A stretch of 64,000 nucleotides of DNA from positions 219,610 to 283,609 of the forward strand of contig KN832573.1 of assembly GCA_000827205.1 (NCBI GenBank), written 5' to 3'. Of this stretch, positions 42,169 to 63,966 are shown one piece after another (position 1 is the stretch's first letter; each line of letters begins with the position of its first letter). Origin of the DNA: Plicaturopsis crispa FD-325 SS-3. Taxonomy: Eukaryota; Basidiomycota; Agaricomycetes; Amylocorticiales; Amylocorticiaceae. Under the pieces are notes generated by a model, which ran no database searches, had not been told where the DNA came from, and saw only the letters and a program-made list of their open reading frames with translations. A program made the translations under genes and the position numbers.

Positions 42169-42254
42169 ACACCTATGGTGAAGTGGTTATCATGCTTGCC
42201 TTCCATGGATTTGTCCATAAAGCAAGCGGCACGGGTTCAATTCCCGTTGGGTGT
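42169..42254 (+). tRNA. tRNA-Gly (anticodon TCC) with a 15-nt intron
   Basis: Reads as a full cloverleaf. Acceptor ACACCTA pairs with TGGGTGT. The D stem is GTGA/TCAT around AGTGGTTA. The anticodon stem is CTTGC/GCAAG around the loop CTTCCA-A with anticodon TCC. The T arm is ACGGG-TTCAATT-CCCGT. A 15-nt intron (tggatttgtccataa) interrupts the loop one base 3' of the anticodon, the canonical nuclear position. A T-rich Pol III terminator-like run (atttatttt) follows directly. The segment ATGGTGAAGTGGTTATCA is typical of fungal tRNA-Gly(TCC). Confidence 0.9.
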
Positions 42255-42539
42255 ATTTATTTTGTCCAGCATTAATATGGGTTTTAATGCCTTTTTACCG
42301 TCGAACGTTGAAAGGAGGGGAGGGTGGAGGGCATGATGCATAATTTGGAAGGAAATCATCTAAAATAATACTTAATATCTTTTTTAGCCTTGGTGTAGGT
42401 CGGAGAGTAAAGGGAACAAGCTAAATCATATTCAAAGTGTATTGATTTACTATGTATGGACGTATTGTGTTCACTCGCCCATACACCAAGTCGACAAGAG
42501 GAACGCGTCGACAGCAAGGTAGTAAGTAGTAGCAAAATA

Positions 42540-50927: not shown

Positions 50928-51056
50928 AGTACTAGTGGCAAAGGAAATGAGAATGAAATGAAGGTAAAGATGTAGTCTGGATGTAGTTGAGAGCAAGTCG
51001 CGCCGCGCCGCGCGCTGACAGAATTTGACCTATTCTGTATAAAGGATAAAAGGCAT

Positions 51057-51128
51057 GCACTGGCCGGGAATCGAACGCGAGACCTTTAGCACACATGGCA
51101 ACGCTCTAACCAACTGAGCTACCAGTCC
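51057..51128 (-). repeat. tRNA-like segment within left LTR
   Basis: The minus strand has an A-box-like TAGCTCAGTTGGTTAGAGCG and a B-box-like GTTCGATTCC at tRNA spacing, with acceptor-like ends GGACTGG and CCAGTGC. The anticodon arm does not form a normal stem, so I do not call a tRNA gene. It is part of the LTR. Confidence 0.6.
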
Positions 51129-51350
51129 GTGTATTAGACTGGTGTTAGCTAGCATCAGGTACAAGTGATGGAACTTGTATTTCTGACACCCCCACTCAAG
51201 TGAATACTTGTACCGGTGTGGAACCTAACAGCATCCTTGCAGAGGTACGGGGACCCCCACTGAACCTGGAGCGGATCCGGTTGTACGGAAGCACTGTTAG
51301 ACCGGAGCGTGGGCAATGATTACCAATGCAGAGGCCTCTTAAATCCTTAG

Positions 51351-51730
51351 NNNNNNNNNNNNNNNNNNNNNNNNNNNNNNNNNNNNNNNNNNNNNNNNNN
51401 NNNNNNNNNNNNNNNNNNNNNNNNNNNNNNNNNNNNNNNNNNNNNNNNNNNNNNNNNNNNNNNNNNNNNNNNNNNNNNNNNNNNNNNNNNNNNNNNNNNN
51501 NNNNNNNNNNNNNNNNNNNNNNNNNNNNNNNNNNNNNNNNNNNNNNNNNNNNNNNNNNNNNNNNNNNNNNNNNNNNNNNNNNNNNNNNNNNNNNNNNNNN
51601 NNNNNNNNNNNNNNNNNNNNNNNNNNNNNNNNNNNNNNNNNNNNNNNNNNNNNNNNNNNNNNNNNNNNNNNNNNNNNNNNNNNNNNNNNNNNNNNNNNNN
51701 NNNNNNNNNNNNNNNNNNNNNNNNNNNNNN
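51351..51730. other. Assembly gap of 380 N, probably an unmerged contig overlap
   Basis: The 90 bases before the gap (51261-51350, tgaacctggagcggatccgg ... aaatccttag) are identical to the 90 bases after it (51731-51820). This pattern fits two contig ends that overlap and were not merged. Confidence 0.75.
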
Positions 51731-51867
51731 TGAACCTGGAGCGGATCCGGTTGTACGGAAGCACTGTTAGACCGGAGCGTGGGCAATGATTACCAATGCA
51801 GAGGCCTCTTAAATCCTTAGTGGGAGTGACAGAATTTGACCTATTCTGTATAAAGGATAAAAGGCAT

Positions 51868-51939
51868 GCACTGGCCGGGAATCGAACCCGAGACCTTTAG
51901 CACACATGGCAACGCTCTAACCAACTGAGCTACCAGTCC
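51868..51939 (-). repeat. tRNA-like segment within right LTR
   Basis: Same segment as at 51057-51128, in the second LTR, with the same A-box and B-box spacing. Confidence 0.6.
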
Positions 51940-52038
51940 GTGTATTAGACTGGTGTTAGCTAGCATCAGGTACAAGTGATGGAACTTGTATTTCTGACAC
52001 GCGCCGCCTTGCCATAGTGGCTTTACGTAACTATAATA

Positions 52039-52525
52039 GGGGTCTTCAAAGTTGAGCGATGCTCCGATGCTCGATGCTGGTCGATGCTCGATGTCAATGT
52101 TCGGCAGCCTCGGCAGGAAACGGAAAAGTCCCACGCTTGATTGTTGCTTGATTGCCCTCCGAGTCGTGCCGTCGCCGCCGGGATGTAAAAATATGGTTTG
52201 ACCCCGAGTTAGGGTTACATTTTAGTGCACATTTTGACTTGGGCTTCCTCATTTCTACATCACCTTATGAGCAAAGAACGGACAAAAGATCACGGAATAT
52301 CTCTAAGAATGGGAACCAACAATGTGATGTGTGTGCTTTGACTGTGAGGATTGCCTCAACGAGCATAAACCCTAGCTTAGGTTTCTGAGTTTCTTTGGTC
52401 GCCGACGTGGCAACAAAGACGCAACCAAGCGTGGGACTTTTGCATTTCCTGCCGAGGCTGCCAAACATCGACATCGAGCATCGACCAGCATCGAGCATTG
52501 GAGCATCGCCAACTTTGAAGACCCC
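52039..52525. mobile_element. MITE with about 100-bp inverted repeats and TA target duplication
   Basis: The left arm 52039 to about 52143 begins GGGGTCTTCAAAGTTG and contains iterated GATGCTC/GATGTC units, then GGCAGCCTCGGCAGGAAA and AAAAGTCCCACGCTTG. The right arm, reverse complemented from 52525, repeats the same order with a few mismatches. TA flanks both ends (52037-52038 and 52526-52527), fitting a Tc1/mariner-type MITE. The 487-bp element has no coding capacity. It lies 34 bp from the LTR element's target duplication and 66 bp beyond the GH31 stop. Confidence 0.85.
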
Positions 52526-52591
52526 TAATGAACTATTCGGACCACTCCCACAAAGTCTCTATAGTATAAGGTCTACTATCAGCAGCCACAG

Positions 52592-62254: not shown

Positions 62255-63966
62255 ATGCGCAAGTACTCCTGCATCAAAACTTGCGGGCGCGAATTTACGG
62301 ACCAGCACTCGTTGAATCTCCACCAAAACCGCTGCGTAACCGCGAAGAATGCCGAAAATGTTTCGCGCCAGACGCAGATTGAGGCGCGGAAGAGCCGGAA
62401 GCGTCGAAAATTGGAGAAAGCAGAGGATGCAGCCAAGTTAATGTCTCAGGTACGTTCTGCCGCGCTACAGCGAAGATTTACTGTGCTTACTCAGGGCGAC
62501 ACTCTTTGGATAGGCTCTCCCTGACGGCTCCTCCTCCAGCGCAGTGGTACCAGATGTCGAGATGGGCTCGGTCTCCGATTCCGCTATGGATCTTGACCCT
62601 GATCCTGATGCCGCCGCTGCTACGACAGACGCCGCCGCCGCCGCCGCCGCTCGGCACCCCTCCCCTTCACCCCCTCTCACCGAATCTGGACGCCACACTA
62701 GAAAAACACGGATACCCGCCAGGTTTGCAGACAATCTACCTGCAGGACCAGTGCCGATTCCCAACCCTGTACTGCCTCCCGCCGAGTCAGGAGCAGGACG
62801 AGTCCTCCCCCGTGTTATACTCATTGTCCGTGACACAATTCGTACAGGCATGAATAAATTTGGTCTTTTCCGCGAATATCCCCACCGTCCATCCTATGAC
62901 CCGGACGCAGCTGTCATGACCAATGAGCTACTTCGTCCCAGTCACACGGCTGCCGCTGATCCATCACCTATCTCTACCGACTCACATTCTCCGCCCTGGC
63001 CCTTCGCGAACATGTCGATCTATCGACTCATGCAATGGTTTAACTCAGGCAGCTCACTGAAATCAGCCGGTGAGGTCACTCGTCTTGCCGCAGAAGTCAT
63101 TACTGCCAACGATTTCGATCCCTTGGAGCTGAAGGGCTTCGATGCTCAGCGTGAAAATGCCCGTTTCGATCGCGCGCAAGCACTTGAAGCAGATGATCTC
63201 CCTGGAGATGGTTGGGTCAAGGATGACCTCGTAATTGAAGTACCCACTGGGGCCCGTGGCGACGTGGCAGGGACCGAACACTTCGTCATCCCCGATTTTT
63301 TTCATCGGGATATTGTCGAGATGATCAAGTCAACATTCTCTGGAGCTGCAGCACGCCAGTTTCACCTGACGCCCTTCAAGCGACTGTGGAAGCCGTCTGC
63401 TAGTGGTCCGGAGGAACGGGTACACGACGAGCTCTATGCATCCGATGCCTGGATTGATGCGCATGAGAAACTACAACGCCAGCAACGCGAGCCGGGCTGT
63501 GATCTCGAGCGTGTTATTGCAGGACTAATGTTCTGGTCGGACGCTACTCATCTCACAAGCTTCGGTACTGCGAAAGCATGGCCGATCTATCTGTTCTTTG
63601 GTAACCAGTCAAAATACGACCGCGCAAAACCGTCATCGGGAGCGTGCCATCATCTCGCATATGTTCCCTCGGTAAGTCAGTCTCATCTTATCAACCGTGA
63701 ACCACACTGAACTCACGACTCGAACAGATACCCGACAAGATACAAAGTGTATTTGCAAGGCTCGCAGGAGGTTTATTTTCACGCAAACGAAAGGATAGCC
63801 TCCTGACACATTGCCGACGTGAACTGATGCAGGCGGCTTGGAGTAAGCTCCTGACACCGGAATTCCTCAAAGCATATTACCACGGAATAGTCATCAGATG
63901 CGCAGACGGCATTATCCGTCGAGTATTCCCCCGCATCTTCACATACTCTGCCGACTACCCGGAAAA
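62255..63966 (+). mobile_element. Plavaka-type (CACTA superfamily) transposase gene, 5' part
   Basis: Exons visible: 62255-62449, 62514-63671 and 63728-63966; the gene continues past the window. The N-terminus is a C2H2-like finger, YSCIKTCGREFTDQHSLNLH then QNRC, followed by a basic region. A disordered Ala/Pro/Ser region comes next. The Plavaka core then reads LFREYPHRPSYDPDAAV, WPFANMSIYRLMQWFNSGS, FHLTPFKRLWKP, LMFWSDATHLTSFGTAKAWP, IYLFFGNQSKYDRAKPSSGA, CHHLAYVPS-IPD and GIIRRVFPRIFTYSADYPEK. The WSD...HLTxFG.A..WP block is the recognisable signature; in this family it belongs to the transposase catalytic region. A start at 62201 would add 18 residues. No disabling change was seen in the visible part. 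Confidence 0.88.

Follow-up and report, generated by a model that had tools for sequence, protein, structure and literature searches.

Structure of the locus

The window analysed in this work is a 64,000-nucleotide stretch of the Plicaturopsis crispa FD-325 SS-3 genome (contig KN832573.1; G000:C20:219610-283609 in our numbering), and the searches of its own genome covered 33.2 Mb in 49 contigs. The window carries two direct repeats of 173 bp each, LTR1 (51016-51188) and LTR2 (51827-51999), which start with TG, end with CA and are identical at 172 of 173 positions, with a single difference. The pair is flanked on each side by the pentamer CGCGC (51011-51015 and 52000-52004), as the first-pass annotation of this region had stated. 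When two 55-bp flanks are compared, 11 of 2,601 5-mer pairs match, which puts the chance of a boundary match at about 0.4%; because the left flank is CG-rich, this target-site duplication is weaker evidence than usual, and the window copy is the one locus of the family at which a 5-bp duplication was observed. In the orientation preferred here, the minus strand, LTR2 is the 5' LTR and LTR1 is the 3' LTR.

In the assembly, the repeats are separated by 638 bp, which include a 162-bp part of the interior in the left contig (51189-51350), an assembly gap of 380 N inside the element (51351-51730) and a 96-bp part in the right contig (51731-51826), both parts being read on the minus strand. The contig ends flanking the gap overlap: the 90 bp of 51261-51350 recur without change at 51731-51820. 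A genome search for other copies of the 173-bp repeat, which had been proposed as a check, recovered one further copy, on contig C9, in which the same LTR (C9:530011-530184, 174 query bases) is followed by a continuous 168-bp interior. Beyond this interior, the C9 copy shows 15 bases of the start of another LTR and then breaks off in a gap of 7,239 N (C9:522590-529828), within which its other end falls. The search returned at least three LTR places and at least three interior places, all of them from the window and C9 copies. The left and right interior pieces of the window differ from the C9 interior at 1 of 162 and 0 of 96 bases, respectively. Because the C9 copy contains the 90-bp overlap stretch once in an unbroken interior, the true interior is most likely 168 bp, as opposed to 638 bp between the window repeats, and the whole element most likely measures about 514 bp (173 + 168 + 173). 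The C9 interior is too short for gag or pol, and the longest stop-free stretch is 52 codons. The earlier description of a non-coding internal part does not extend to the 380 N, which are unreadable as non-coding sequence. The suggestion of recent movement is compatible with the LTR identity, but just two copies were seen.

tRNA-like segments in the LTRs

ARAGORN predicts a tRNA-Thr(TGT) on the minus strand of both LTRs, at 51056-51128 in LTR1 and at 51867-51939 in LTR2. Both segments are also matched by the Rfam tRNA model in a scan of the whole window, with 42.5 bits (E 1.1e-5) for LTR2 and 32.2 bits (E 0.0079) for LTR1. In LTR2, box A TAGCTCAGTTGG (51921-51932) and box B GGTTCGATTCC (51878-51888) are followed by TTTT, resembling a Pol III terminator, at 51859-51862 on the minus strand; the same TTTT is found in LTR1 at 51048-51051. 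Box B is exact in LTR2 and in the C9 LTR. In LTR1 its first G is changed (GGTTC to CGTTC), and the strict box B pattern is met in the window by LTR2 only. The A-box/B-box pair that had been ascribed to each LTR is therefore present as such in LTR2, but its box B is mutated in LTR1.

The tRNA-like block is probably not a working tRNA, because the Rfam alignment of the window block skips the anticodon arm, its lowest-energy fold lacks the cloverleaf shape, and its closest match among native tRNAs at the fetched loci is Ile-AAT (79% over 58 nt), whereas the predicted anticodon is that of Thr; a working tRNA gene was rejected as an explanation on these grounds. The block was probably retained as a promoter. 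A plasmid search returned two short bacterial matches with coordinates within the tRNA-like parts. tRNA annotation will list LTRs of this type among tRNA-Thr genes, which is what happened with the tools used here. Elsewhere in the window, an apparently ordinary, probably intron-bearing tRNA-Gly lies at 42169-42255, which ARAGORN calls SeC in another mode; introns are predicted in many tRNAs of this genome.

The tRNA calls in both repeats, together with the gap and the overlapping contig ends between them, could be expected if a tRNA-Thr gene had been duplicated in tandem with its flanks, or if misassembly had repeated one tRNA locus. On C9, however, the LTR and interior recur in an unrelated position and run into another LTR start, and the repeat pair of the window is flanked by CGCGC. 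A search with the 25 bases at the start of the tRNA-like block, allowing up to three mismatches, gave four places only, which are the three LTRs and one further site on contig C26, and hence revealed no native gene of this sequence. We consider a duplicated or misassembled tRNA locus very improbable and reject it on the C9 copy, provided that C9 is not itself misassembled.

A second tRNA-bearing LTR in the genome

The site on C26 represents a second tRNA-bearing LTR in the same genome, which is an addition of this analysis. Among 53 tRNA matches (63 of 681 candidates were scored), it was the one that resembles the LTR block. A 401-bp region around it matches contig C17 on both sides, without a match in the middle, and the alignment places an insertion in C26. 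Delimited by its LTR-like ends, TGTTGG...CCTACA, the insertion is 214 bp long and is flanked by ACAGA on both sides, where the related empty site on C17 reads ACGGA. It was read as a solo LTR since no paired repeat of at least 60 bp was found within the 1.6 kb fetched around it (L071), and a genome search with the 401-bp region found no further copies of the insertion. Similarity between the C26 LTR and the window LTR is confined to the stretch between the tRNA start and the TTTT (74% over 82 nt). The C26 block scores 40.2 bits in Rfam, with the anticodon arm aligned, and matches neither of the strict patterns, for box A and box B, that were applied to the window. The presence of the tRNA block and TTTT in two LTRs that are otherwise unlike fits a Pol III block captured as a module by unlike LTRs and possibly served by Copia elements.

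A tRNA-derived SINE, or SINEs inserted near each other, would likewise show a tRNA-like head, Pol III boxes and a TTTT. In the window, however, the tRNA-like segment sits in the middle of a TG...CA repeat and not at a 5' end, the paired 173-bp repeats surround one interior with a 5-bp duplication, and no A-rich tail is present at the right end; on C26, the tRNA-like segment is part of another, different LTR-like insertion, which has Copia-type ends and a related empty site. A SINE, with a tRNA head at its 5' end and no LTRs, was rejected, the block being placed inside paired LTRs, and appears to us scarcely credible. According to the first-pass annotation, its reading would be overturned if the repeat proved to be a SINE or a tRNA flank duplicated by misassembly; the recurrence of the LTR with its interior at an unrelated site on C9 supports neither.

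Orientation of the element

A polypurine-tract (PPT)-like sequence with one T, GAGTGGGGG, adjoins LTR1 on the minus strand at 51189-51197. The PPT/LTR junction in this orientation, TTGAGTGGGGG/TGTCAGAAATAC (the slash marks the boundary), gave five places when up to three mismatches were allowed: both copies of the element and three relatives, identical to one another, on C5, C6 and C9. A junction search at the other interior end returned nothing beyond the two copies. Over 23 positions in minus orientation, the junction matches the LTR-like family represented on C5 at 20 and the end of a truncated Copia element on C6 at 18, values that none of 20,000 random window pieces reached; in plus orientation, 16 positions match in each comparison. 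The window junction matches the Copia elements at C6:1637134 and on C14 at 13-14 of 23 positions. The better match to Copia relatives favours the minus orientation, with the tRNA in sense, although the assignment is not certain because PPT-like purine runs stand at both interior ends.

Alternatively, this miniature LTR element could be of the Pol II type, either carrying the tRNA-like block as a passenger or being read on the plus strand from a TATA-like promoter. TATAAA does occur at position 23 of the plus-strand LTR, and AGTGGGAG precedes LTR2 on the plus strand. Against a Pol II-type element stand the junction counts given above and the sharing of the tRNA block and TTTT by two otherwise unlike LTRs, which suggests that the block is used; the latter argument is weakened by the failure of the C26 block to fit either strict box pattern. 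On balance we regard a Pol II-type element as unlikely, and the minus-strand reading is retained below.

As a separate observation, the interior ends at 51189-51200 and 51815-51826, CTCCCACT...AGTGGGGG, form an inverted repeat that matches at 9 of 12 positions by hand count. Owing to this inversion, the RNA could pair end to end. A Helenus-like element that has no tRNA primer site, and whose RNA self-primes or is picked up by a Copia lineage via its paired end, is a variant to which we assign a low probability.

Primer-binding site and Copia relatives

No pairing of at least 8 bases that starts within the first 12 interior bases, in either orientation, was found with an incomplete set of 52 predicted tRNAs, which lacks an iMet prediction and with which the C6 Copia site, used as a control, was also blank, making for a weak test. 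The set counts the window tRNA-Gly twice, includes the C26 block and depends on intron calls that are uncertain. Chance pairing of this length is common, being reached with the same tRNAs by 96 of 300 random stretches.

The genome holds Copia elements, some with long open frames, and other integrase-bearing elements. The Copias of C6 and C14, the two with resolved LTR ends (the C27 Copia was left out for its boundaries), have 5-bp duplications, as does the window element, and LTRs of 320 bp and about 301 bp, respectively. After the repeated stretch of the 5' LTR they carry GGTTAT-type sites, GGTTATTGAGCCCC and GTTATGAGCACCC, which we take to resemble sites for the iMet anticodon loop; the window element has no GGTTAT-type sequence at the corresponding place. 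These Copias further differ from the window element in being coding and in having LTRs with TGTTG starts and no tRNA match, and the similarity of the window and C26 LTRs to their LTRs is no better than that of shuffled sequences. In the fetched Copia loci, no tRNA was matched by Rfam even at E 5, and a piece resembling box B, read on the reverse strand of the LTR in the truncated Copia, was discarded for the same reason.

The Copia at C6:1733563, apparently truncated at its 5' side, has a frame that ends over the same kind of junction as the window element, GAGTGGG.G/TGTCA. This similarity, with that to the C5 family, makes a Copia-type element the favoured candidate for a helper, with some doubt left by the purine runs at both interior ends. 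The C5 relative (L099:57-222, within C5:681250-681620) is an LTR-like stretch of 166 bp, TGTCAGAAATAG...TTCTGACA, with a similar PPT; no tRNA was called in it, this being the one place checked among the C5, C6 and C9 relatives. At C23:259821 (L085), a fragment of the same Copia 3' end with an LTR-like stretch lies beside an integrase frame and is nested or chimeric.

Class assignment and proposed mechanism

The first-pass annotation had interpreted the element as TRIM-like, with a tRNA-like Pol III promoter segment in its LTRs, and the paired LTRs, the 168-bp interior and the Rfam and ARAGORN calls support this. It had also presented a fungal TRIM of this type as an independent analogue of Cassandra; any claim that it would be unrecorded is superseded by the literature. 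Helenus, a kind of TRIM with tRNA-like LTRs, was named by Kojima in 2024 (PMC10886601), with 113 families from rust fungi; further families come from three Agaricomycetes, from animals and from a lycophyte. According to that paper, Helenus elements have a total length of 311-1263 bp, those of fungi make 5-bp duplications and are proposed, with evidence, to be mobilised by Copia elements, the primer-binding site of most fungal families is said to pair with the tRNA anticodon loop, and a working Pol III promoter is not proven. Cassandra, in the portion of PMC10886601 that describes it, likewise has the Pol III promoter of a small-RNA gene inside TRIM LTRs, but carries 5S rRNA instead of tRNA and occurs in plants.

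Compared with published families by description, the window element looks like a member of the Helenus kind, which is already known, and not a new kind of element. It shares with Helenus the TRIM organisation of two LTRs and a short interior, a length within the published range, tRNA-derived sequence with box A and box B in the LTRs, occurrence in a fungus, a PPT adjoining the 3' LTR and the lack of coding capacity; the 5-bp duplication is likewise shared, as CGCGC in the window and ACAGA at the C26 LTR. Signs of a Copia connection, discord between the predicted anticodon and the nearest tRNA, and solo LTRs are further features that the elements of this genome have in common with Helenus. The differences are that only two copies of the window family were seen and that its primer-binding site was not recognised by pairing with the 52-tRNA set. 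The element adds a tRNA-LTR family that may be unlisted.

We consider it highly probable that the locus holds a non-autonomous minus-strand LTR retrotransposon of about 514 bp, of the Helenus kind, which we infer to work through Pol III and a Copia-type helper. Pol III would bind the tRNA-like boxes of the 5' LTR (LTR2) and start just upstream, read through the weak TTTT of LTR2, cross the interior and end at the TTTT of the 3' LTR (LTR1). This course is modelled on Cassandra, which PMC10886601 describes as being transcribed from the 5' LTR through to the 3' LTR. The tRNA-like block would thereby be repeated at both ends of the RNA and could serve as the R region for strand transfer. Proteins of a Copia-type element would then copy the RNA, with GAGTGGGGG as the second-strand primer, and integrate the copy with a 5-bp duplication.

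Other mobile sequences in the window

A MITE-like element occupies 52037-52531, beginning about 37 bp to the right of the TRIM; its inverted arms measure about 120 bp each (90%). Further MITE-like copies are located at C2:1824935-1825363 (92%) and C27:87565-88047 (85%), with fragments elsewhere on C2. In the frame at 62544-63707, Pfam identifies a Plavaka transposase (E 3.3e-15), the sole match over the cut-off among eight other window frames submitted. Plavaka is a mark of basidiomycetes.
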